Below are positions 17,402 to 62,699 of a stretch of 64,000 bases of DNA, one piece after another (the first letter of the stretch is position 1; each line of letters opens with the position of its first letter). Origin of the DNA: Clostridiaceae bacterium (GTDB taxonomy: Bacteria; Bacillota; Clostridia; Acetivibrionales; DUMB01); NCBI GenBank assembly GCA_012840085.1, contig DUMB01000044.1:1-64000 (forward strand), in the 5' to 3' direction. Both the position numbers and the translations under genes were made by a program. The notes below the pieces were generated by a model. That model was not told where the DNA came from. It made no database searches and worked only from the letters and a program-made list of their open reading frames with translations.

Positions 17402-17549
17402 CCTCATCTCAGCAGTTCCCGAAGCAACAGCTGCACTTCCTTATCCAGGCAGTTACCCAGGGAACAGCTGTATATCCTCATCTGAGCAGTTCCCAAAGGA
17501 ACAGCTGTACATCCTCATCTCAGCAGTTCCCAAAGGGACAGCTGTGCAT
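17402..17549. repeat. Four tandem 37-bp copies at the end of the dockerin gene
   Basis: Units start at 17402, 17439, 17476 and 17513, each 37 bp long. The two right-hand copies (17476-17512 and 17513-17549) are nearly identical (CCTCATCTcAGCAGTTCCCA...); the left ones have diverged. The right-most unit encodes the last residues of the dockerin (AQLSLWELLR). Since 37 is not a multiple of 3, each copy shifts frame and the extra copies form a non-coding spacer, whose last copy abuts the ribosome site of the cohesin-SLH gene. Confidence 0.85.
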
Positions 17550-20500
17550 CCGTTATGTCTACAACACCGTCTCCGTCCTTATCGGACCTCAGCCAGCCTT
17601 CCCTGTCGTCCAGCCAAACATATCCTCCGCTCAGTATACCATTGATGGTGCTCAATACGTCTGCTTTTTCCACTACATTGTTCCCATCGGTATCTCCGCG
17701 TAAAAGTACAGGTGATTTTTTATCCGGATCAAATTCAATTTTGTCTATTATCTGTTCGCCGGTCAGCCTGTAGCGGAACACTCCCATATATGCTTTCCTT
17801 GCTTCATCGTACAGTAGTGTTACCAGCTGTCCTTCCGCCTCTACAGTTGCCAGTCCGCGGTTCTTTTCAGTAAACAATATTAACAGTGTAAGGCCTTGTG
17901 TCTGGCGAATCTCATATCTATAGCCCACATCGCGTACCCTTATCTTTATCACATCGGCCAGTTCATTGTAGACTTTTCTGCCATCCTCGCCTTCTATTGC
18001 TGCCACACGGTAGCTTACCTTTATTGCCGTCTCTCCTGGTGCAAGGGCCTCTATCGTACCGTCCTGGGAAAGCTTGATGATGTTCTGCTCATAGAGAACC
18101 TCCCACACGATATCCTCCGGCTTGAGAAGAACCTCTCCTTTGGCAGTCACACCCTTTACTGTGAGGATGGTCTTGTTACCTATGTTCATCTCTATATAGT
18201 CAGGCTGCTGTCCCGAACCTTCCAGTTCTGATATCAGTTTTACACTTTCAAATACGGCAAGTGAACGGTTCACAAGGTGTATCTTCAGCTCGGCCACATT
18301 GCCCGCTGAATCTTCCGCCCTTAACAACAGGGTCTGTACTGCTTCACTACTGTCCGTTTCACCCACGATTATGAATGTCCCGTCAGGGAAGACGGTGATA
18401 CCGTCCTTTTTACCGTCAAGGGTCAGAACTGCCGATTTCTCTGTCAGTCCATTAATCACAAAGGAACCGTCCTCGTTCACAAATACTGTCTGGCTGCTGA
18501 CGGTGGTTTCCTCGCCATCTTCTCCCATGCTGGCTGAAGCGCTCTGCCCCAATGCAAGCACAGGTGCCACCGTATCTACGGTGAACCCGTATACCGCACC
18601 GGCTTCACTGCCTGTCAATGTATCATTCTGCTCATTAACCGCTTCAAAGTCCACAATATGCATACCGTCCTCAAAGCTTTGCTGTATGCTCCACTCGGTC
18701 TTGAACTCATCCTCGCCCTGCTGACGGACTGCGTCAATGATAAACGACAACTTCACAGGCATGTCAAATGTATAGGTTGCCTCATATAAAGCATTGTTTG
18801 TGATTATTTCCTCACCCTGGTCAGGTAGATTGGCCGTCACACTGATGAGAGAAGGTTTTCTTGTTTCGGGCATTACAAAGCCTTCAGAAACCGTACTTTC
18901 CGTACTGTAATAGTATAATATTTCCTTATCTTTCGTAACTGTCTCTTTCAAAGCTGTAACTTTTGCATAATAGGTCTTTCCAGGTACCAATGCAGGCAGG
19001 TTGCTTCCGGGCTGCACCGGTCTAAGTACGATTTTCTGATTCACTGCATATTTTCCGAAGCCGTTTGGAACTTCCTGTCCCTCTTCATCGATGAGAGTTA
19101 CCATATAGTAATTGAACGGTGACTGTTCATTTTCTTCGACTTCCACCTTTACCGCACCGTTGCCGGCATAGCTCAAAACTACTGATCCGGGTTTGCCGGG
19201 CAGCAGCGGATTTACAAATTCAAAGCTTTCTTCACTCATTACTTTGCTCATTCCGCCACGGTGGTCGTTTAACATTGCAACTACATAATACGACCCTTCT
19301 TCAAAGGTTTCAGGCAGCGTAAAGATATGCTCACCGGACGAAATGCGGTCCAGGCCGATATTTCCTATGCTGATTAATACGCTGGCATCTTCTTTGGCAT
19401 TATTCTTTTCAAGCTTGCTCATTATTTCAGCATCCTTTGTAACATATACATTAAGGGCACCCGTCGCATCACTTTCAGAATCCGTTGTCCATGAAACCTT
19501 GATATCCCTGCTTTGGGGTGAAGTCCGTGAAAAAGACACACTTGTGATTTCAGGTAAATTATCCACTCCGTTTACTACAAAATCGTCAATTGTTACATTT
19601 TCAGCAGTAATTGTCAATGTCCAGTTACCTTTAATCAGTTGAGCGGGGTCGGTTATACTAATATAGAGGTAATGCTTGTCGTTTCTTGTTTGAATTAAAT
19701 AATTCCCTCCGCCTTTTCCATCGCTCTCAGCCATGGGTATTCTATTACCATTAGGATTTTCCAGTATAATCTCGTTTGCAGTTGGTTTTCTTATTCCCTT
19801 AAGCGGGACTTCAATCAATAAAGCATCTTCTTTGGATGGATCAAAGTATTTGGTAATTCCGTTGCCTGCACGGGTTTTCATAACAGGCACTGAATTCAGC
19901 CTTCTAAGATTGGTTCCGTAGGCCACCGTGGACTCAACATAATTACCGTTCTTGTTCCGGTAGCCGGAGGGCACATACGTTACAGCCCTTCCTATGGAAG
20001 ATAAATCTATTCCCTGTCCGAATTTATATTCTCCATCCCAGTAATAGATGAATCCAAATTTAATACCGATTATAGTTACATTGGCTCCGATAAAATCTGA
20101 AGAAATTGCCGCTTCAACTCCTGCCAGTTGCATGCCGCCAATAAGGGGTATTTCTTCAGGAACATACAAGACGGCGTATACATACCCGTAGAAATAAGAC
20201 TCGGAAATCTTTATCGTAAAACCGCCCTGCAGCAAGCCCTCACATATACTGATATTTCCGTATACATTGATGTAGAACGGGGTTATCCAGCGTGCTGACA
20301 TACCGCAGTTGATTTTCATAATTTTCCCTTCATCGTCTTCCATAAGCTTGAATTCGCCATCAAGTTTTAGGCCTGAAAGATCAATTTCCAGCTTAAAATC
20401 GCCGGTTAATGTTTCTATAAGTAAAAGCTGTGTTCTCAGATGAAGAGTCAAAGGAGGAAGTTCCCCTATTGTATTGTCGCTGAATGTATCAGCCAGATTG

Positions 20501-22695
20501 GAAATACCACCGCCTAAGCCTGTCATGAATACAAAGGGCGGAACAATGGGAACTTGCATAGCCTCGCCGGCCATGTAAAACATCAACTCATCAGGAAGAA
20601 TGCAAGGCACGGATTTAACCGGAACCTGCTTGAATGCAATGCTTCCCTCACATTCCAGTATTTCCAGCTCGACACCGAATTCTATCTTGTAATAGTGTTC
20701 TATAGTATTAATGGTTACTTCAGCTTCAACTCCAAAGGCGTTTTTCACTAATGAACCCAAAACGTCCTCCGGCAACTTTACTGAAATTGTTACGTTAATA
20801 CCCAAAAAGCCTATACCGTCTTTGTGCTGTCCAAAACGTACATCGTCAATAGCTGCGGTTAATTCTCCTTCCTCATCATCATCTTCATCATCATCATTAT
20901 CGCTATTATCGCTGCCGCCGCTACCGCCATTGCTGCCGCTGCTACCGTTGTCACTGCCGCCACTGCCTCCGCTGCTGCCTCCGCTGCTGCCTCCGCTGCC
21001 GCCACCGGAGTCTGACCCGCCATCGTCTTTTTTATCCGGTGCACTGATGGGCAGTGTGATTTTCCCGCCAAAACTGATTCCGTACATGCCATCATCTTCA
21101 GTCATTACACCATATTTCAAATCTATCAGAAACCCACCCAGATACTGTATCATAGATCCTGCTCCGACCAAAGAAAGCACAAAGGCTTCGGCATTGCCCT
21201 CCTCCACCTCGTCCTGATCCAAAGTGAGCTTTTTACCGTTTTTGCCTTCAAACTTCCATGCATTATGCCAAACGTTAATGGAATTGATTACTTTTAATGT
21301 GCCGTCACCTTCCAATACGGCACCCTCATCCTTGTCACATGTCAGCTTAAGGGGCTCCTCTCCAAGATAAGTCAAAATATTATTTATAGTGATGTCTCCG
21401 TCCGCCTTGCTGGCCTGATAGAAGAAATTACCTTCTCCGTCCTGCAATTTATATAGCTTACCGCGTACTATAAGCAGAATTTCCGAACTGTCTTTATCAA
21501 ATTTGATTCCTTTATGCGCAAGACCGTCTTTAATTTTATCCCCTGCAATAAAATTGTTTAATTCGGTTTCGTTTGCAAAGCTGACAAAATCATAGATCTG
21601 ACTGTTATCTGACGGATTATCGAACCGAACCATCACTACAATACCGTAGCTTGCACAGCGGTCCTTTGGATCGTTTGAAACATTCAGCTGCTTCGACGCG
21701 GTAATTTTATTCCCGAAAGATGCTATGAGCTGATGATCCGTAAATTCAAACACTATATCATGCTTTCCAACCGGTATGGTCTCGTTCGTGGAAAATGACA
21801 TGGTCTTTCCTTCGTCAATAAAACTTATCCGCTTCTTTTCAATAAGGATTTTCTCCCTGGTGGATGAAGAAACCAGATACAGGCTCCAACCGTCGCTTGC
21901 TGCAAGAGCATCACTGAGCACTTTCATATTTCCGGATACGGTAATATTTTTATCGCCTTCATAGTAAACTGAATCCGGATTTATCTGCTTCATTACAATA
22001 TTCGGCAGCATGCCTCCTACTGCAGGCAGCAGTACGTTACAGCTTGCACTGTATTCCACAAACTGATGGGTGGATTCGTCCACAACCTCTGTAGCACTTA
22101 CTGAAGCTACAATTCGTTTGGACGTTATCTGCGGCTGCTTTTCCGCTATGATTACTATATCGGGAATGTCAAAAACAGTTCCTGCGTTCAGTCCGCCCTC
22201 TATTCTAACCCTGTATTCCCGTGTTCCTGTTGCCTCAAATTTAAGCCCTTCATCAACAGTAATGGTAACCAGCGGCTCTATAAGCATTCGTGCATTGTCA
22301 ACACTGTTATCCAGCGTTACCGTCAGGTCGAACTTTCCGTCATCCTTATATACTTTCTTGCTGCTGTCCAGTTCAACACTTCCGGCGTTCAGGCTGATGC
22401 CCAGCCGTTGCTCCTTCATCTCATGGGCAAAGTTTCCGATACCATAGAGCATTTCGGCCACTCTGCTTTTCCCGGCTTTAAGCGGCCTTTCACTCCAGTA
22501 AAAAGCTGTCGCCGTATCAGGAACAAGGTGCTCATTTGAATAATTGGAGAAATCACAACTGGGGTTTGGTACATAATCATAGCGGGTATTGGCAAGGTTT
22601 ACCCAGTGCCCTACTATTACCTTTTTGCTCAATTCGGGAATCGTTGTTACAGCTGTCGCGGGTATAATAGTAGAGAGTGCCTTTAAAAGTTTCAC
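17515..22695 (-). CDS. Giant exoprotein, C-terminal part with type I dockerin
   Basis: 1726 codons open in this frame, the C-terminal two-thirds of one gene that begins at 24729. It carries repeated beta-sandwich regions, an S/G-rich and then acidic linker (residues near 550-610), fibronectin-III-like and Big_2-like segments, and ends in a dockerin: two calcium-loop motifs DTDGNNVVEKADV and DKDGDGVVDITDAQ. The in-frame start given is not a real start: the upstream frame ending at 22577 continues into this one if one base is lost from CAAAAAGG near 22622 (giving IEQKVIVGHWVNL). It would be secreted and docked to the SLH-cohesin protein encoded next. There is no recognisable catalytic domain, so it may be structural or adhesive. 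Confidence 0.8.
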   Translation of the reverse strand: MKLLKALSTIIPATAVTTIPELSKKVIVGHWVNLANTRYDYVPNPSCDFSNYSNEHLVPDTATAFYWSERPLKAGKSRVAEMLYGIGNFAHEMKEQRLGISLNAGSVELDSSKKVYKDDGKFDLTVTLDNSVDNARMLIEPLVTITVDEGLKFEATGTREYRVRIEGGLNAGTVFDIPDIVIIAEKQPQITSKRIVASVSATEVVDESTHQFVEYSASCNVLLPAVGGMLPNIVMKQINPDSVYYEGDKNITVSGNMKVLSDALAASDGWSLYLVSSSTREKILIEKKRISFIDEGKTMSFSTNETIPVGKHDIVFEFTDHQLIASFGNKITASKQLNVSNDPKDRCASYGIVVMVRFDNPSDNSQIYDFVSFANETELNNFIAGDKIKDGLAHKGIKFDKDSSEILLIVRGKLYKLQDGEGNFFYQASKADGDITINNILTYLGEEPLKLTCDKDEGAVLEGDGTLKVINSINVWHNAWKFEGKNGKKLTLDQDEVEEGNAEAFVLSLVGAGSMIQYLGGFLIDLKYGVMTEDDGMYGISFGGKITLPISAPDKKDDGGSDSGGGSGGSSGGSSGGSGGSDNGSSGSNGGSGGSDNSDNDDDEDDDEEGELTAAIDDVRFGQHKDGIGFLGINVTISVKLPEDVLGSLVKNAFGVEAEVTINTIEHYYKIEFGVELEILECEGSIAFKQVPVKSVPCILPDELMFYMAGEAMQVPIVPPFVFMTGLGGGISNLADTFSDNTIGELPPLTLHLRTQLLLIETLTGDFKLEIDLSGLKLDGEFKLMEDDEGKIMKINCGMSARWITPFYINVYGNISICEGLLQGGFTIKISESYFYGYVYAVLYVPEEIPLIGGMQLAGVEAAISSDFIGANVTIIGIKFGFIYYWDGEYKFGQGIDLSSIGRAVTYVPSGYRNKNGNYVESTVAYGTNLRRLNSVPVMKTRAGNGITKYFDPSKEDALLIEVPLKGIRKPTANEIILENPNGNRIPMAESDGKGGGNYLIQTRNDKHYLYISITDPAQLIKGNWTLTITAENVTIDDFVVNGVDNLPEITSVSFSRTSPQSRDIKVSWTTDSESDATGALNVYVTKDAEIMSKLEKNNAKEDASVLISIGNIGLDRISSGEHIFTLPETFEEGSYYVVAMLNDHRGGMSKVMSEESFEFVNPLLPGKPGSVVLSYAGNGAVKVEVEENEQSPFNYYMVTLIDEEGQEVPNGFGKYAVNQKIVLRPVQPGSNLPALVPGKTYYAKVTALKETVTKDKEILYYYSTESTVSEGFVMPETRKPSLISVTANLPDQGEEIITNNALYEATYTFDMPVKLSFIIDAVRQQGEDEFKTEWSIQQSFEDGMHIVDFEAVNEQNDTLTGSEAGAVYGFTVDTVAPVLALGQSASASMGEDGEETTVSSQTVFVNEDGSFVINGLTEKSAVLTLDGKKDGITVFPDGTFIIVGETDSSEAVQTLLLRAEDSAGNVAELKIHLVNRSLAVFESVKLISELEGSGQQPDYIEMNIGNKTILTVKGVTAKGEVLLKPEDIVWEVLYEQNIIKLSQDGTIEALAPGETAIKVSYRVAAIEGEDGRKVYNELADVIKIRVRDVGYRYEIRQTQGLTLLILFTEKNRGLATVEAEGQLVTLLYDEARKAYMGVFRYRLTGEQIIDKIEFDPDKKSPVLLRGDTDGNNVVEKADVLSTINGILSGGYVWLDDREGWLRSDKDGDGVVDITDAQLSLWELLR

Positions 22696-24124
22696 CCCGC
22701 GGGACTCTCAAAACTGCTGTGGTAGTCTCGGTTCCACCTTCAACAAATGCCCATTTGCCTGTTACTACGTCTATTTCGCCCGTCACCGGTTCAATGTTTT
22801 GACTTGCAGGATCAGGAACCTCCTGCCCCTCTTCTACAAAGCAGTAGTAGGTCCTTGCCCACGAACCGAACTGCCTGTTCTCTTGCAAATCCTCTATATC
22901 AAATCTATAATCGTTCCTCTTGATGCCGTCCGGCGCCTGGTTCTGAACTATCTCAGTCAGTTGCACACGCGGAGCCTTGCGGTCTAAATATATATTCTCT
23001 ATTTCAAAATAGTCATTTCCGTACAAGCCGTTATTGGCATCATCATAGCCATATATACGCAATTTGAACTGGCCTTCGACAGGATCTGCCGTCTTTAGCG
23101 TGATCATTGCGTCCTGAATGACCGATGTGCTGACAGGTGCCTGCACCTGCGTCTGTTTACCGGTGCCCAGATATCCGGTAATGGGAACAGGAGAGCTGCC
23201 ATAGACTCCACCGCTTTTCTGGTATAATTCATACCTTAAATAACGCTCATTTTGTGAAGTATGTGGAGCATTCTTATCCGGATACAAAATTTCACTGCTC
23301 ACAAAGTAAAAATTGTGTTCATTGCGAATGGAGTTCTGTATGGGAATGTCTGTTCCGTTGACATTTGTGAGCCTTATGGTGGGAGCCTTTGTATCAACCT
23401 TAAATTTGGGGAAATAAAAATATATGGAAGTTGATCCGTCCTGCAAAACATACGTTTTGCCGTTGTGTACCGAGGAAACACCATCCAGCTGAAGCCGTAT
23501 ACCGTCATTCGGACTGCCCTGTTTATCCGGTGGTACATCACAAATAAAATTAATTTTGCCGTCGGCTCCTCTTACTATATCCATAGATAAATCCAGATCA
23601 TAGAGTTTGTTTGAAGGGTTTGTGTTATTGCCTAAATACAGGGCAGCAGAAGTGCACCTGAAATTATTCGCTATGCTCCGTTTTTCAGTCTCGCTTATGA
23701 CGCCGCAATGAATGGAAGTCGGGCTAATGTTTATTCCGACTGTGTGCTTTTGATTGTTTAAATAATAGAAATCTGTCCGTGGGGAGTAGTAGGAAGCAGG
23801 GTTTACTATTTCTGCATCCCCCAGTTCAAAAACACTGCGGTAAAAGGTGAAGGTTTTTTGTTTTACCAGATATTCTGTTCCTCCAATATTTTTATAGACC
23901 ATGCCCGTACTCTCTTCACTGGTCGAACGCTTGAGGAATCTCGGCTCTGTAACTAATGTCACAGATCCTATTCCCTTTTCGGTCATTTTGTCATATAGTT
24001 TTTTTTCATTTATTTTAATGGTTGCATTTGACAAAGCAGCTGGTGGTGTAAACTCCAGCCAATCTGTACCTACCCTGTCGTCTGACAGGTAATATGACAT
24101 AGTGGGCGGATCGTCACACAGCAT
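22577..24124 (-). CDS. Giant exoprotein, middle part (separate frame)
   Basis: 515 codons from an internal ATG; the open frame actually extends up to about 24284. The content is Ig-like and beta-rich (for example APRVQLTEIVQNQAPDGIKR; FVEEGQEVPDPASQ), with no catalytic motif seen. It joins the N-terminal piece if one A is added to the run of seven A at about 24280-24286, giving GNEKKYFSVSTERKITSF and on through YDNWGGTFYVDKNSPDTFQQ. At its 3' end it runs past the frame of the dockerin part and stops at 22577. It is therefore not an independent gene. Confidence 0.75.
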   Translation of the reverse strand: MLCDDPPTMSYYLSDDRVGTDWLEFTPPAALSNATIKINEKKLYDKMTEKGIGSVTLVTEPRFLKRSTSEESTGMVYKNIGGTEYLVKQKTFTFYRSVFELGDAEIVNPASYYSPRTDFYYLNNQKHTVGINISPTSIHCGVISETEKRSIANNFRCTSAALYLGNNTNPSNKLYDLDLSMDIVRGADGKINFICDVPPDKQGSPNDGIRLQLDGVSSVHNGKTYVLQDGSTSIYFYFPKFKVDTKAPTIRLTNVNGTDIPIQNSIRNEHNFYFVSSEILYPDKNAPHTSQNERYLRYELYQKSGGVYGSSPVPITGYLGTGKQTQVQAPVSTSVIQDAMITLKTADPVEGQFKLRIYGYDDANNGLYGNDYFEIENIYLDRKAPRVQLTEIVQNQAPDGIKRNDYRFDIEDLQENRQFGSWARTYYCFVEEGQEVPDPASQNIEPVTGEIDVVTGKWAFVEGGTETTTAVLRVPRGETFKGTLYYYTRDSCNNDSRIEQKGNSRALGKPCQYPL

Positions 24125-24204
24125 ACAAATATAATCACCGTATTGGTCGACTATATGTCTGTTCCAGTAATTATATTGTTGAAAAGTATCCGGTGAGTTT
24201 TTAT

Positions 24205-24729
24205 CTACATAGAAAGTTCCGCCCCAGTTGTCATATGTTGAGAAGCTCGTAATTTTTCTTTCTGTTGATACAGAAAAGTATTTTTTTCGTTGCCAAAATC
24301 ATGATCTATATAGTAATAAACTTTAAAAGGATAACCTGTGCAGGGATTACTATAACTAAAAAGATTCGGATAGTATATGTAGACATAATCACAATACCAA
24401 TCGTTGTTGCCATCTTTTTCAAGAAAAAAATCAGAAATCATCCACGGGTCCTTTACTGAATCAGTAAAAAAATACTCCCTGTATTGATTCCGTTCGTGGT
24501 CATTACCATCAAGATCCAGAAGCTTTCTAATTTCTGTCCCGTCACGGAAACGAAATCCTGCATATACATCATCATCGGTACCTGCCAGGTACACATCTTT
24601 TGTTTTAACCCCAAATCCGAAATAATAATTTCCCTCCGCACGCACTTTTGTAACCGGCATTAATGACAGTAGCAAAACGGCAGTCAGAAACAAGCAAAAA
24701 ATTTTCCTTTTTACATATTGTCTCCTCAT
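24205..24729 (-). CDS. Giant exoprotein, N-terminal part with signal peptide
   Basis: Start ATG 24729 behind GGGGGAGG. A Sec signal peptide (RRQYVKRKIFCLFLTAVLLL, then SLMPVTKVRA-EG) is followed by about 145 residues of aromatic-rich secreted protein (YYFGFGVKTKDVYLAGTDDD) of no known family. The frame fails after GNEKN at the A7 run near 24284 and runs to a spurious stop at 24205. With the two downstream frames the full protein would be about 2,380 residues. It follows the C11 peptidase pseudogene on the same strand, with a 117-bp gap. Confidence 0.75.
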   Translation of the reverse strand: MRRQYVKRKIFCLFLTAVLLLSLMPVTKVRAEGNYYFGFGVKTKDVYLAGTDDDVYAGFRFRDGTEIRKLLDLDGNDHERNQYREYFFTDSVKDPWMISDFFLEKDGNNDWYCDYVYIYYPNLFSYSNPCTGYPFKVYYYIDHDFGNEKNTFLYQQKEKLRASQHMTTGAELSM

Positions 24730-24845
24730 TTTACCTCCCCCTTTATTTCCACTTATATTTTCATTTCTCAAAACAATTGCATTTTTAAAATTTACCCTTA
24801 ATTAGTAAAACCCCCATGTTGTTAGCAGTATCTTGTTTTAGCAGT

Positions 24846-26687
24846 TTAAAGAGACTTTTGATTATACAATCCAAAATGAAAGTCCCAAATTTTAGTTGAG
24901 AGTACATCACCTATATGGGTTAAAGTTTTATCGTTATGTTTTATGTTTATAAGATGTCTCTGAAAATCACATACAGGGAGGTTTGGCTGAGCCCGTTTTT
25001 TTAGTTCATCCATCATAGAAAAACAATCCTTCGGCTTATAGACAGGAACACATATACCAATACCACAATACCTGCCGCCTCCGGAGGAATTTCGGACCTC
25101 GCTTGCCAGAGCCTGTACTACTACTGTAATCTCAGAAACGCCTTTCATGAACCTGAGCAAATCAAATTAATCAAAGACACCTTCAATTTTTGCCCTGCAG
25201 TTCAGAATTCCGTGCCGACTGGGTCAAAAGTCTCCGTCAAAAAGCCATATAATCCGCAAGTTGTCTGTGTACGTCTTAAGTCCCTCATTGCTGAGGATGT
25301 TGGAATATTTGCTTCTATACCTGCATGAAAAATAGGAAAATAGCTTCTCCCAGCCTTTGCATGCTAATGGCCGGATTACGCTTCAATGCTCCGGTCCATG
25401 CCATGCAAGACAAGCCGCAGACAGGCGCTGCTTCTTCAGACAGGCGCTGCTTCTTTAGACAGGCGTTGCTTCTTCGGAAGCAATCAGGTATTTAGTATGG
25501 TGTCTTAGGGCATAAGCTGTTTCCACCGTACCCATCAGGCAGGCATCAAAAGCAATAATGTCAAAAAAAACTCCTGCATTTGCAATAGCTGCACTTATAT
25601 CGGATACCGGCATGGTTTTGTTCTCGTTCAGTTCGTCTGCACCGAAGCCCCCCTTTATTCCGTAACCATGATCCCATAATACAAGAATATACCGCTGTGA
25701 AGGGGCTTCTTTAACCCCCCATTTTATAAAATCTGTCAATGTTTGAGGATCAGATGCCTTTGTTGTGGTATTGTAATCTATCCTGCGCAGTCCCTTTCCT
25801 GTCACACGAAATCTCTCAGCTTTTTTGTTTGTCATCCAGTCATTATGGTATTTTATTGTGCCGCCTGTTTGCAGCAAGACATGACAGTTGTCGTTTGGTG
25901 CGGCCAGCAATATTTCATTTAAATCATTTGTAAGCCTTTCTTGCTTTGATTCCAGATCAGACCCGACAGCATAAATCAATACTGTGGTTGATTCATATTT
26001 TTCCCTCTGCTCCCAGCACCGTTGTGCATCGTTGAGCTGCTGCTGTGTAAACACCCCCTGCTCAACAAGAATCTTGCCCAATGTATTTGCACTGTCTTTC
26101 TTACGGGTACTCAGTGCAAAGCAGGCTATCTCTGCCATTTTCCCTCTGTCAAACTTTTCTTTTCCGGTCAATTCCTCACCAAGAACTATTGAAGCAAACT
26201 TGACAGAATTCTGAAAGGTAAAATCACCATTGCTTTCGTTATACCCCAGCACCCTCAGCAGCATAGTGCAATACTCCCGCAGCGAAGCTTGCTTGCTGCC
26301 GCCGAAGCTGTTGTCAGATATTCCCTTTACAATAGAATGATTGTATCCATAAGAAACGTACGGCTCATCCCATTTTGTATCAATAAAAGGGTGTGAATAG
26401 GTGCTTTCAAGAGCTTCCTGCTCTTTTCCCAGCAAGCGGATAATCATCACTAAGACTTCCGACCGTGTCGGCGCCCTATGAAGCTCAAGACCTTTTTCAT
26501 TCCCCCGCAATACACCTAAAGTATTTAAAGCTTCGGCATAAGGTAAGCTTTCATGCTCTGAAGGCGAATTTTCAAGTTCAGACGCAGACACCGGCGTCGC
26601 AGTGCCTGAACAAGTTATGTATATTATACATATCAGCAGCCATATCAGCAGCTTATTTGTAAGATTTATTATTTCTTCCAAACTCAT
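24846..26687 (-). pseudogene. SLH-anchored clostripain-family (C11) cysteine peptidase, broken
   Basis: The first 410 codons (26687-25455) encode a signal anchor, about two SLH motifs (YAEALNTLGVLRGNEKGLEL; FIDTKWDEPYVSYGYNHSIV) and a C11 peptidase with catalytic His in LVLWDHGYGI and Cys in IIAFDACLMGTVETAYAL. The frame then ends at EEATPV because a 19-bp unit is triplicated (25419-25475). Downstream, other frames continue the family's C-terminus: GLSCMAWTGALKRNPAIS near 25390, and the open stretch 25160-24846 (FMKGVSEITVVVQALASEVR). Further stops interrupt 25160-25400. The truncated product would keep the catalytic dyad but lack the end of the fold. Start ATG 26687, ribosome site AAGGTG. 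Confidence 0.8.
25419..25475. repeat. Three tandem 19-bp copies inside the C11 peptidase gene
   Basis: Copies at 25419-25437, 25438-25456 and 25457-25475 read AGACAGGCGcTGCTTCTTc with one or two differences. Each repeats the codons for EEA(A/T)PV. The 38-bp gain puts a stop in frame and cuts off the peptidase C-terminus. Confidence 0.9.
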
Positions 26688-28422: not shown

Positions 28423-29517
28423 TTAGCCCATCCTGTATTTCGGCATAGGCCTTCCCGGTTTGAAGCATTCCGTCTTCAAATGCACCGTTTCAGTATTTGT
28501 TTCATTACAAACACCGGCAAGGACAGTCTCAACCAGTGGTCTAAGAGTCTCAGGATCTGTATTCACCCTTGCATTAATAATCAGATTAAACTGTTCCGTA
28601 TCTTTCTCCATAGTTCTGTTAAAATCAATTTCATCATATATGCTGGTTATGCTCGCTTTCACCCAATCATCCTGAGCAATGCCGTAAATTTTCAGATGAG
28701 CAATTTCACGGTTCATTTCTTTAAGCTTTATGCTTATTTCATTCATAAGCTTTTCTACAAAGCTGTTAACATTTATGGGTTTCTCCGCTTTAAGCAGTGC
28801 CGCACTGTTCAGCCATCCAAGGTATTCCTCTGCCAGCGCATAAGCATCATAGTCAATATCAAGTGAACTGCCCGGCATTGCTTCCCTTCCCATAACAACC
28901 TGTACCCACTCATCTATTCCGGTACCGTTTTTAGCGGATACAACCAATACGTCCGTACCTTTGAATTCTTCTTTCAAAAATGCAGTTATGGCCTGAATCT
29001 CTTCAGATTTAAGGGTATCAGCTTTGTTAAGGATAATTATGTCAGCCTCTTCCATCTGTTTTCTGAAAAGGTAATTGATCTCATTAGGGAATGGAGATCC
29101 TTCTTTCTCCATCATTAACCTTTTTACCCTTTTTGGATCTGCAACAATGGATAAAGGCCTCAAAACAAACTGATTTACATAATTATGCATAAGGGGCTTA
29201 TACAGTGTAGCTATAAGGTCGGTGCAGCTTCCCACCGGCTCTGCAAGAATTACATCAGGCATTTCGCTTTCTGCCAGTTCGTTTACCTTGGCTGTAAACT
29301 CATCAAAATTGCAGCAGAAACATCCTCCTGTGACTTCAAGAACAGGCAGGCCTTCCTTTGCAAGAAAGTTTGTATCCACCAGGTCACTGCCCTGATCATT
29401 GGTCACAATGCCAATTTTTTTACCGCTGCCCAGCAGGTGCTTTGCTATGCTTAAAATAGATGTAGTCTTTCCTGCGCCAAGGAACCCCCCGACTATAACA
29501 AGATTAGTTCTGGACAT
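28423..29517 (-). CDS. CobW/COG0523-family GTPase (metallochaperone-like)
   Basis: 364 residues. Walker A GGFLGAGKT (10-18), the family's metal-binding CxCC motif as GCFCC (C66, C68, C69), AEPVGSCTD, and the guanine motif NKAD in IIILNKADTL. These mark the COG0523 G3E GTPases that load metals or act in cofactor delivery. The C-terminal third does not look like a standard CobW_C domain. It overlaps the thioredoxin-like gene by about 14 bp, so it is the last gene of a three-gene operon with a UroD-thioredoxin fusion. The context suggests delivery of zinc or a cobalamin-related function to the methyltransferase-like partner. Confidence 0.88.
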   Translation of the reverse strand: MSRTNLVIVGGFLGAGKTTSILSIAKHLLGSGKKIGIVTNDQGSDLVDTNFLAKEGLPVLEVTGGCFCCNFDEFTAKVNELAESEMPDVILAEPVGSCTDLIATLYKPLMHNYVNQFVLRPLSIVADPKRVKRLMMEKEGSPFPNEINYLFRKQMEEADIIILNKADTLKSEEIQAITAFLKEEFKGTDVLVVSAKNGTGIDEWVQVVMGREAMPGSSLDIDYDAYALAEEYLGWLNSAALLKAEKPINVNSFVEKLMNEISIKLKEMNREIAHLKIYGIAQDDWVKASITSIYDEIDFNRTMEKDTEQFNLIINARVNTDPETLRPLVETVLAGVCNETNTETVHLKTECFKPGRPMPKYRMG

Positions 29518-29800
29518 GTTCTCCTCCCTCCATCTGTATAATAGAGATAAGCTGCCGTTTTGTAATCAGCGAGCCTGCTGTTATCTGTTCGTTATTAATG
29601 AGAACGGCTGGAAATTTTTCTACTTCCAGCCCCTCAACTTCTGCAGCCTTCTTTATATGATCAAGTTCGATCAGCTTAACCTCAACATTGCTATATTCTT
29701 TTTGAATTTTTTCAAGCGTTTCCTTAATAAGTCCATAAATTATATTGCATGCTGTACAGGGGTCTTTAAGAGAGACCAATGTTATTGTTATTTTTCCCAT
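29504..29800 (-). CDS. Thioredoxin-like small protein (CxxC = CTAC)
   Basis: 98 residues from ATG 29800 (ribosome site GGAAGGG). A beta-alpha-beta start (KITITLVSLKDPCTACNIIY) with a CTAC active-site motif, a cis-proline-like FPAVLINN, and a final helix make a minimal thioredoxin fold. No signal peptide, so cytoplasmic. It overlaps the downstream CobW gene and follows the UroD-thioredoxin fusion by 68 bp. Probably a thiol redox partner or copper/zinc-handling protein for these neighbours. Confidence 0.8.
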   Translation of the reverse strand: MGKITITLVSLKDPCTACNIIYGLIKETLEKIQKEYSNVEVKLIELDHIKKAAEVEGLEVEKFPAVLINNEQITAGSLITKRQLISIIQMEGGEHVQN

Positions 29801-29868
29801 TTTGCCCTTCCTTCGCCCCTTAACCAAGGATTAACTATCATTGCCCGGCTTTTCTTCATTTAATTCCA

Positions 29869-31230
29869 TTATTGTTTTGCTGCTTTTAAGTCAACCGCTT
29901 CCTTAATGCTCTTTTTAAGGTGCTCAACATCAGGAATTATGCTGACATACTTAATCTGTCCATCAATACAAATTGTCGGCAAATTCTTTACTCCCAGCTT
30001 AAGCATGTAGACAACTGATTCCTTAAACTTAATCTTATGCTCCCTATATACTACTTTGTCTCCGAAATCAGCACAAGCCGCTACAACCGCTTCCATCATA
30101 TACTGGCATGGAGCACAGGACTCGGAATCGAGAGTTATTACATCTATTATAACCTGCTTTTCGTTCTGGTAATCAGGCAGTTCTACATCAATTCCTTCAA
30201 GGACGTTTGAACTCTTCATAAATTCAGCAACTTCGCCATGTACATAGCTGGCTATTGCCTTTACGTTCTCAGGAGGAGTTGCAAAAGGCATGTCACATCC
30301 GGGTGAAAGTATATAACCCTTTTTGCCTCCTATAGACATACAGTTTTCAGCATTTGCAATATTGTCAGCCGGTGTACCGAAAAGCATGGTAACTGTCAGC
30401 TGTATATTTCCACCGAATGAAACGCCATATTTGCTGCAAACTTCTTTTACATATTCAAGAGGAATGTTTTCATCAATAGATATATTATCAGGTCCGCATT
30501 TGCACATTTCCTCAATATTATTTTTCGCATTGCCGCATACAAAGAATGAGCATCCTTTGCCTCTGGACCTGACATATTCAAATACAGGCTTTGCATAAGG
30601 AGATACAAATTCTGCAAAATTATCCGGAGATATCTGTGAAGTCATGGGATCCACAACAGCTATGATATCCACGCCGGCATCGATATACATTCTGGATGTG
30701 TTAATGCATACTTCTTTGCAGAAGTTCATCAGTTTGTGAACATTCTCGGGTTCATCTATCATTTCATAGAATATATCCGTTCCCATAAGATGAAGAGCCA
30801 AAGTGAAGGGACCGGTAATCAATCCATACAATGCGATTTTGTCTCCAAGAGCTTTACATATCCTGCTGGCTGCATCAAGTACCAGCGGGAATCTTCCGTC
30901 ATTTTCTCCGGGTATTTTTAAGTCTTCAAGTTTTTTGCCCTCTTCAAGAGGATGAGTTGCAACGGATGGCGGGTTAGTGTCCGAATATTTGAGTTCACAA
31001 CCCATAGCTTCAGCTTCAACCTGCAAATCAAATAATACAGGCAATCCGTCAGGCCTGTATAACTCATATGCCTTTGTAACTCCCGCAACTATATTGTCAC
31101 TGCTCTTGAAATATTCCTCTGCAGTTACACCTATAAGGCTTGCAGCGTGACATCCAACGAAAGGTACCCATGGTATACGCTCTACTTCTTTGTTATGAAG
31201 TGCATCAAGAACCAATTGCTTTGAATTCAT
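29869..31230 (-). CDS. UroD-family methyltransferase-like protein fused to a thioredoxin domain
   Basis: About 453 residues from ATG 31230 (ribosome site GAGGGGG). Residues 1-345 are a uroporphyrinogen-decarboxylase/MtaA-type barrel, the fold of corrinoid:coenzyme M methyltransferases. The zinc-ligand region reads FFVCGNAKNN (the usual HxCG has lost its histidine) and SPGCDMPFATPPENV keeps the second cysteine. Residues about 365-453 add a thioredoxin-like domain with CAPC. It is the first gene of an operon with a second thioredoxin-like protein and a CobW GTPase. No corrinoid protein or first methyltransferase is encoded nearby. A redox-controlled methyl transfer or a cofactor-related thiol reaction is possible; the substrate is unknown. 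Confidence 0.85.
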   Translation of the reverse strand: MNSKQLVLDALHNKEVERIPWVPFVGCHAASLIGVTAEEYFKSSDNIVAGVTKAYELYRPDGLPVLFDLQVEAEAMGCELKYSDTNPPSVATHPLEEGKKLEDLKIPGENDGRFPLVLDAASRICKALGDKIALYGLITGPFTLALHLMGTDIFYEMIDEPENVHKLMNFCKEVCINTSRMYIDAGVDIIAVVDPMTSQISPDNFAEFVSPYAKPVFEYVRSRGKGCSFFVCGNAKNNIEEMCKCGPDNISIDENIPLEYVKEVCSKYGVSFGGNIQLTVTMLFGTPADNIANAENCMSIGGKKGYILSPGCDMPFATPPENVKAIASYVHGEVAEFMKSSNVLEGIDVELPDYQNEKQVIIDVITLDSESCAPCQYMMEAVVAACADFGDKVVYREHKIKFKESVVYMLKLGVKNLPTICIDGQIKYVSIIPDVEHLKKSIKEAVDLKAAKQ

Positions 31231-31498
31231 AATTTTCCCCCTCATCAAGACTTTAGTTCATTATCCTTTTACTATATTCTTTTGCTATCCCGTGCCGTCT
31301 TGCGGGATTATTCCAGAAAAAGACGCAGCATTATAGTTATATGTAAACCATATCTTATTTCAATAACATATTACTTATTTTTGAGGGGAAATTATATTAA
31401 ATGGTTATGAAATATTGTATTTTTTTATGATTTTGTACTTTTTTTATGGTATTATTTTTTATGACACTGTTTGTTGAAGAGAAAGTATTAAATTTCAC

Positions 31499-61529: not shown

Positions 61530-62699
61530 CTACTTGTATATTCCATATTCCTGCAATGTTTCCCACATAGCCATGAAGTTTTCCGGAGGCACGTCGCTCT
61601 GGACGTTGTGAATTGCTGCAAATACGAAACCTCCACCGGGAGCCAGATCTTCTATACGCCTTTTTACTTCTTCCCTTACCTCTTCCGGTGTACCAAAAGG
61701 CAATACGCGCTGTGTATCAACTCCACCGCCCCAGAAAGTAATGTCCTTTCCGAATTCCCTTTTCAGCACTTTTGTATCCATGTCTTTGGCATTTACCTGA
61801 ACAGGATTCAAAATATCTACGCCTTCTTCGATCAAATAAGGAATCATAGGTATAACAGCACCACATGTATGATAGAAAATATACACTTTGTTCTTTGCCT
61901 TTTTCTTTATAAATTCAAACAGTTTTTTATGATATGGATGCACTATCTTTTTGTAAAGATCTACTGAACATAGCAAACTGTTTTGTGTAGCCAGGTCGTC
62001 AGCCTCGGACACGATCAGTACATTTTCACCCACTGTCTCCAGAGCCTTCTCCCAGTATTGCATCTTAAGTTCAGTGATTTTGTCCATGAGTGCATGGGCA
62101 AATTTCTCATTTAGTACCATATCGCAGAAGAATTTTTCGAAACCGCACATCCATAAAGCAGTTTCCCATATACCCGCATACTGCCTTCCCAGGATATAAG
62201 CCTTTTTCTCTTCATATACGTATTTGTCTGCTCTCTCTTTGAGCGTGGCAAATCTTGCAGGGTCAACCGGATCGGGCCATGGGAATTTTTCGATATCCTC
62301 TATGGTTTCTGCGTCTGCCAGAGGGCGTTCCATCATATCAAAATAGTGTCCCTTCTCCACAGGCATTTTCCAGCCTATTCCCCACTCATCTGTCATTTTA
62401 TAATAATCGCCGTCGCGTTCTATGTCTTTTGCCAATCCCTTTTTGGAAGGAGGACTGGGGTCAACGCATCTTACGTCTATCTTCAGCCTTTCAATCATAT
62501 CATCATCAATTCTTGCCAACTGCTGCATTACATCATAGATTTCCACTTCTTTCCCGGGCATTCCAAGGTACTTTCGCAGGTTGGTATAGCAATGCCTGTT
62601 CATACCTGTCAAAACGCTGCCGCCAAGATCAAAAGGAACACGGTCCGGCTCTCTATGCTCAAGTGCCGCCTTTACCCTTTCATAGCTTGTGTATTGCAT
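61530..62699 (-). CDS. Uroporphyrinogen decarboxylase-family protein
   Basis: 389 residues from ATG 62699 behind AAGGGGG. UroD-fold features are complete: EHREPDRVPFDLGG at the start, an HTCG metal/active-site stretch in IFYHTCGAVIPMIPYLIEEG, and the typical end GGGFVFAAIHNVQSDVPPEN. It differs from the thioredoxin-fused UroD at 29.9 kb, which has lost the histidine. Members of this wide family include corrinoid methyltransferases and other enzymes unrelated to heme. It overlaps the permease gene by 28 bp, so it is co-translated with a ribose-type ABC transporter; the enzyme probably works on the compound imported, perhaps a methylated sugar or glycoside. Confidence 0.9.
   Translation of the reverse strand: MQYTSYERVKAALEHREPDRVPFDLGGSVLTGMNRHCYTNLRKYLGMPGKEVEIYDVMQQLARIDDDMIERLKIDVRCVDPSPPSKKGLAKDIERDGDYYKMTDEWGIGWKMPVEKGHYFDMMERPLADAETIEDIEKFPWPDPVDPARFATLKERADKYVYEEKKAYILGRQYAGIWETALWMCGFEKFFCDMVLNEKFAHALMDKITELKMQYWEKALETVGENVLIVSEADDLATQNSLLCSVDLYKKIVHPYHKKLFEFIKKKAKNKVYIFYHTCGAVIPMIPYLIEEGVDILNPVQVNAKDMDTKVLKREFGKDITFWGGGVDTQRVLPFGTPEEVREEVKRRIEDLAPGGGFVFAAIHNVQSDVPPENFMAMWETLQEYGIYK

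Follow-up and report, generated by a model that had tools for sequence, protein, structure and literature searches.

A conserved bacterial operon pairing an MtaA-like protein that carries a thioredoxin domain with a small thioredoxin and a CobW-family GTPase

Introduction

Among MtaA-like proteins, His-Cys-Cys sites have been argued to favor sulfur or selenium substrates, and a methyl-selenium role is supported for an Mlp2 of the type 1 mlp clusters (Kountz and Balskus, PMC10418091). Members of COG0523 subfamily 13 lie beside corrinoid methyltransferases, including the Zn-dependent MtaA and MtaB, and have been proposed to act as metal chaperones (Haas et al. 2009, PMC2770081).

The operon described here was found in a 64,000-nucleotide stretch of clostridial DNA (the window). 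It combines three genes, for a UroD-fold protein with a C-terminal thioredoxin domain (UroD-Trx), a small thioredoxin-fold protein and a COG0523 GTPase. The first-pass annotation knew of no described system with this set, and a literature search, whose coverage lacked most subscription papers, likewise found neither a UroD-thioredoxin fusion nor the three-gene set. The placement of COG0523 beside corrinoid methyltransferases is already known (Haas 2009, PMC2770081). What appears new, judged from sequence, is that a probable corrinoid methyltransferase of the MtaA-like kind carries thioredoxin domains and differs from MtaA in its metal site. The reading that we favor, with somewhat better than even confidence, is that the operon forms a corrinoid-dependent S-methyltransferase module made up of an MtaA-type (MT2-like) enzyme, a built-in thioredoxin and a zinc-supplying GTPase.

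The Three-Gene Operon

The three genes are a real, widely conserved bacterial operon on the reverse strand of the window. The first (29869..31230; ATG at 31230, stop at 29869-29871) encodes the 453-residue predicted UroD-fold methyltransferase (PF01208, 1.3e-72) with its C-terminal thioredoxin domain, in which the redox motif CAPC is encoded at 30106..30117. After a gap of 68 bp (29801-29868) comes the gene for the 98-residue thioredoxin-fold protein (29504..29800, ATG at 29800; Thioredoxin_3, 5.6e-07), with CTAC at 29747-29758. It overlaps by 14 bp the gene for the 364-residue COG0523/CobW-family GTPase (28423..29517, ATG at 29517; cobW, PF02492, 2.5e-28, 99.3 bits). The Walker A segment of the GTPase is at about 29461-29487 and its metal motif GCFCC at about 29311-29325; the closest solved relative is YjiA, where GCICC aligns with GCFCC. 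Purine-rich stretches resembling ribosome-binding sites precede all three starts; for UroD-Trx the stretch read from the sequence is GAGGGGG (31233..31245, reverse strand). The first-pass annotation had described a tight operon with a 68-bp gap and then an overlap, and had listed the motifs CAPC, CTAC, GCFCC and FFVCG; all of the reading frames are at the positions given there and every motif is found in the window proteins.

That annotation had also assigned thioredoxin domains to the first two proteins, and both assignments stand. In the small protein Thioredoxin_3 is matched directly, although a profile of this protein finds no solved relative by sequence. In the fusion the same model covers residues 369-442 below threshold (21.1 bits, cut-off 24.8); the domain is nevertheless taken as thioredoxin because of its modelled secondary structure and the conserved CAPC or CAAC.

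The operon stands alone, since the nearest gene on its 5' side, of the CNNM/CorC type, is 335 bp away and the 3' neighbor, of the RelA/SpoT type, is on the opposite strand. Control by a riboswitch is rejected because no Rfam match occurs near the operon. A promoter scan gave 7 hits where 11.3 were expected.

Elsewhere in the window, a clostripain-family peptidase frame (25455-26687) covers only positions 2-171 of the 359 in the Pfam model and looks truncated. Consecutive or overlapping frames of 1726, 515 and 188 aa at 17515-24771 have little Pfam signal; they may be pieces of a single large surface protein whose gene is interrupted by frameshifts.

The UroD Barrel and Its Family

The AF2 model of UroD-Trx (pLDDT 91.4) has its best PDB match in methanogen MtaA (4ay8/4ay7; TM 0.90-0.91 on the target, rmsd 2.1-2.2), so that the barrel is methyltransferase-like, as had been noted at first reading. 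With the model for methylcobalamin:CoM methyltransferase, UroD-Trx scores 190 bits and the next of 8 paralogues in the genome 116; by this sequence score no other UroD tested there is as close to MtaA. It falls short of the NCBIfam cut-offs for MtaA/CmuA (TIGR01463, 184.5 against 235.4 bits; NF004889, 190 against 244; NF040654, 161.5 against 400). The identity of HemE, uroporphyrinogen decarboxylase, was considered and rejected (TIGR01464, 92.5 bits, cut-off 302.95). Another UroD-family protein in the window (61530-62699) has YHTCG and no PGC; its gene neighbors encode a sugar-type permease and two-component proteins.

A GTDB genome scan with the fusion returned 126 relatives. The best 80 of these, at 50-93% identity, are from Clostridia, Planctomycetota, Bacteroidota, KSB1, Chlamydiota and others. 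The fusion is conserved at full length in 44 aligned sequences (51-93% identity), which together with the GTPase linkage described below shows that the arrangement is no chance event. A wide gap in score separates core members (>420 bits) from other UroD proteins (<140 bits), and the thioredoxin domain is present in nearly all untruncated core members. A second clade (clade 2; 40-47% identity, same class) has one thioredoxin and mostly has CobW directly after. Three clade-2 paralogues occur in a single genome (L111, L112 and L113), one with a corrinoid protein gene directly after it. Culturable carriers of a homologue include Robinsoniella peoriensis and Petroclostridium sp. X23. In the latter (L039:7001-8335) a stretch of about 25 codons close to the N-terminus contains several stops, after which the frame is open; the gene looks frameshifted or decayed, unless the sequence itself is in error.

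Most of the non-clostridial members are longer (about 540 aa) and end in a second thioredoxin domain, often without CxxC. When this domain is compared with the separate small thioredoxin, hhalign gives a probability of 80% (E 1.4e-05); judged by that profile match, the second gene of the operon is probably the same component as the extra C-terminal domain. The redox motif of the first fused domain reads CAPC or CAAC almost throughout the family. The exception is a homologue (L055:6463-7821) with STMC for CAPC, in which the first Cys is naturally missing.

The thioredoxin domains bear on a reading in terms of selenium, by which the operon would demethylate methyl-selenol or dimethyl-selenide. 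Demethylation of that kind has been described for related MtaA-like proteins (PMC10418091), and the thioredoxin domain is weakly like the HUIPC (seleno)protein family. The likeness amounts to 33 bits where the HUIPC model NF047660 requires 105, no Sec codon occurs among the thioredoxin motifs read, and the genome has no selD above the cut-off (best 82.7, cut-off 125), all of which makes this reading very improbable. That the proteins are themselves selenoproteins was also tried and rejected, the thioredoxin and CobW domains matching selenoprotein families weakly and no selD passing its cut-off.

The Predicted Metal Site

In MtaA the zinc ligands are arranged as His-x-Cys and a further Cys. A phmmer alignment to 4ay7 places Phe230-Val-Cys232 of UroD-Trx (30535..30543, reverse strand) on the His-x-Cys pair and Cys312 of the PGCD motif (30295..30297, reverse strand) on the third ligand. 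At the MtaA positions, then, Phe stands for His and both zinc-site Cys are kept; all three positions are conserved across the core family, and Cys232 and Cys312 are invariant.

A candidate for the missing ligand lies on barrel strand 1, which closes with Cys27-His28 of the motif WVPFVGCH (31147..31152, reverse strand). The His of the general motif WVPFxGxH occurs in 102 of the 102 members with a readable motif, and a further locus read separately (L164) has WVPFIGCH. The Cys27 position is occupied by Val, Ile or Ala in clade 2. No GCH was found near the N-terminus of the 23 other UroD proteins of the sampled loci. Strand 1 adjoins strand 8, which carries Cys312, and in the alignment His28 falls on the RQAGRY loop that uroporphyrinogen decarboxylase has at strand 1. 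In that enzyme the RQAGRY loop lines the active site. From these alignments a His-Cys-Cys zinc site has probably been rebuilt, with His28 in place of the usual His. The initial reading that the usual zinc His is lost is correct as worded, the Phe being family-wide, but the invariant His of strand 1 is the probable substitute for it. If true, the shift of the His offers a clear case of a zinc thiolate site in which a ligand has changed place.

Gene Neighborhood

For 78 loci there was enough flanking sequence to examine the neighborhood. A CobW-family gene is present within 600 bp and on the same strand in 57 of these 78 informative loci (73%), and the conserved linkage to a COG0523 GTPase that had been claimed is borne out. 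A second thioredoxin occurs in 45 of the 78, as a separate protein in 15 and fused in 30. The first-pass annotation would have called the operon ordinary had most homologues lacked both partners; the counts tell against this for the GTPase, and only in part for the second thioredoxin. UroD-CobW pairing is not confined to the thioredoxin fusion, as is seen from a second pair in the same genome (contig C104; L109:285-2326), where the CobW gene overlaps a UroD gene with a canonical HNC...GC site.

The neighbors of UroD-Trx are the company typical of corrinoid methyltransferase systems. A corrinoid protein is encoded within 7 kb in 30 of the 78 loci; its gene ends 10 bp or less from UroD-Trx in L079, L084 and L094 and lies within about 50 bp in L055, L083, L089 and L153. 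Other neighbors include RACo-type activases, PocR/AraC regulators, DUF1638 and DUF2284. MtaB is part of the gene run in L022 and L023, and MttB-family methyltransferases adjoin UroD-Trx in L148, L158 and L161. In several relatives (L165:8000-12200, L045, L047) the corrinoid gene shares a run with the gene for glutamyl-tRNA reductase or for GSA aminotransferase, enzymes of tetrapyrrole/B12 synthesis.

Company this varied (MtaB, MttB and others) would also suit a general accessory. UroD-Trx could then be a UroD-fold chaperone, its thioredoxin keeping Cys ligands reduced while the GTPase inserts metal into a client, either a corrinoid protein or a zinc methyltransferase. Such a maintenance factor is improbable, given that none of the three putative catalytic ligands varies and that the fold is nearest to an enzyme, not a chaperone.

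The neighborhoods of a few loci raise the main rival to the reading of UroD-Trx as an MT2-like enzyme. In L092 and L094, from Bacteroidota and KSB1, one run encodes a corrinoid protein, a UroD-Trx-Trx protein, a stand-alone homocysteine methyltransferase (PF02574) and a protein like the activation domain of MetH, and the folate module is absent from both runs. These genes amount to a split MetH without its folate module, for which UroD-Trx could be the donor side. Transfer would then run in reverse: UroD-Trx would act as an MT1, taking the methyl group from an S-methyl compound (methanethiol, a methylthio metabolite, or a mixed methyl disulfide opened by thioredoxin) and handing it to the corrinoid protein, from which it would pass to homocysteine in methionine salvage. 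Kountz and Balskus have proposed such salvage for related MtaA-like clusters (PMC10418091). Where MtaB or MttB is the neighbor (L022, L148, L158, L161), however, an MT2 would be of more use than another MT1, and homocysteine methyltransferase occurs in only about 6 loci. This alternative fits the Bacteroidota and KSB1 clusters best; for the operon it is unlikely, if a serious contender.

Probable Corrinoid Partner and Methyl Donor

That no corrinoid protein is encoded at the operon had been taken at first reading as the sign of a different reaction. This view is not supported: a probable partner is encoded on another contig, and its orthologues adjoin UroD-Trx in relatives. The assembly is 97% complete and in 108 contigs, so that a gene could be missing from it. 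Two proteins with B12-binding_2 are present, MetH and one stand-alone corrinoid protein (contig C67; L108:8802-9503), which is encoded beside RACo and PocR near the contig end. The stand-alone protein shares 69% identity with the corrinoid protein encoded next to UroD-Trx in L016, and 77% with its counterpart next to the same set of three genes in another genome (L165). The putative cognate corrinoid protein and RACo activase, adjacent to UroD-Trx in relatives, are supplied in trans here, and we infer that the C67 pair works with UroD-Trx.

Co-occurrence was examined in 243 genomes of the class, with the corrinoid family defined at E 1e-65. The family is present in 25 of the 28 genomes with UroD-Trx and in 43 of the 215 without (p 6e-13, a statistic that ignores kinship); of the 68 genomes with the corrinoid family, 43 are without UroD-Trx. 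MtaB is present in 12 of the 28 and in 5 of the 215 (p 2e-9, again ignoring kinship), and the link persists within corrinoid-positive genomes (p 0.001). Counted by family, UroD-Trx is found in 8 of 11 MtaB families.

In the genome studied here MtaB is encoded on the window's contig (C32:79393-80763), some 48 kb from the operon, and no corrinoid gene adjoins it. MttB was not found in this genome. Its Pterin_bind proteins are only a FolP-like one and MetH, so that no dedicated folate-type MT2 competes. MtaB is absent from 16 of the 28 UroD-Trx genomes of the class sample and from all 17 non-clostridial genomes tested; methanol is therefore not the general donor, and the donor varies.

Proposed Function

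For the favored S-methyltransferase module the analysis shows the gene content, predicted fold, conservation, genomic linkage and co-occurrence; we infer zinc and its ligand set, the direction of transfer, the thiol acceptor and the roles of the thioredoxins and the GTPase. The UroD half would be a divergent MtaA-type enzyme with zinc held by His28, Cys232 and Cys312. The zinc would activate a thiol, and methyl would be exchanged between this thiol and the C67 corrinoid protein, as the precedent of MtaA suggests. RACo would hold the corrinoid protein in its Co(I) state. In the source organism the methyl group would most likely come from methanol by way of MtaB.

The thioredoxin domains may serve to hold the acceptor thiol in its reduced form, or may themselves provide it. 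In the mechanism proposed, the fused domain, served by the second thioredoxin, would keep either the acceptor thiol or the Cys of the zinc site reduced; the first-pass annotation had suggested that thiol redox state gates the reaction. A more specific version would couple methyl transfer chemically to thioredoxin, the fused domain delivering or itself being the accepting (or giving) thiol, at a zinc site with its His on strand 1 of the barrel instead of strand 6; it is put forward tentatively, as less probable than not by a good distance. The COG0523 GTPase would load the zinc; such delivery of a metal, also suggested at first reading, matches the proposal for COG0523 subfamily 13 (PMC2770081).

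The widespread family of thioredoxin-fused MtaA-like proteins, which has a conserved GTPase at its side and a corrinoid partner that can be traced, is a specific target for following the fate of methanol and other methyl groups in anaerobes not expected to have coenzyme M. With its single client, the operon also offers a test of the long-standing idea that corrinoid methyltransferases receive their metal from COG0523 GTPases.

Comparison with Known Systems

The halomethane methyltransferases CmuA and CdmB are corrinoid methyltransferases of the UroD superfamily (PMC13222342), to which UroD-Trx also belongs. CmuA is methyltransferase and corrinoid protein in one, whereas CdmB is without zinc, and thioredoxin is unmentioned for either (PMC13222342). 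COG0523 subfamily 13 offers the likeness of a CobW-family GTPase beside genes for corrinoid-dependent methyltransferases; thioredoxin is unmentioned in that paper as well (PMC2770081).

The type 1 mlp clusters of anaerobes bring together an MtaA-like protein, a corrinoid protein and a RACo/Ram activase, and S- or Se-methyl chemistry has been proposed for them (PMC10418091). In contrast to UroD-Trx, the Mlps keep His-Cys-Cys at the usual places, and neither a thioredoxin fusion nor CobW occurs in the searched text of that paper (PMC10418091). By definition a type 1 cluster holds at least two Mlps plus a corrinoid protein and Ram, all inside 2 kb and in one direction; the operon has one Mlp-like gene at the site, and corrinoid protein and RACo are on another contig.

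Compared with the soluble coenzyme M methyltransferases MtaA, MtbA and MtsA, UroD-Trx has Phe for the His of HxC, an invariant strand-1 His and one or more fused thioredoxin domains. It scores below the NCBIfam cut-offs for these enzymes, and its hosts are mostly not expected to use coenzyme M. With the same three enzymes it shares the fold (TM 0.90), the two Cys of the zinc site, a corrinoid partner and the presence of MtaB in the genome.
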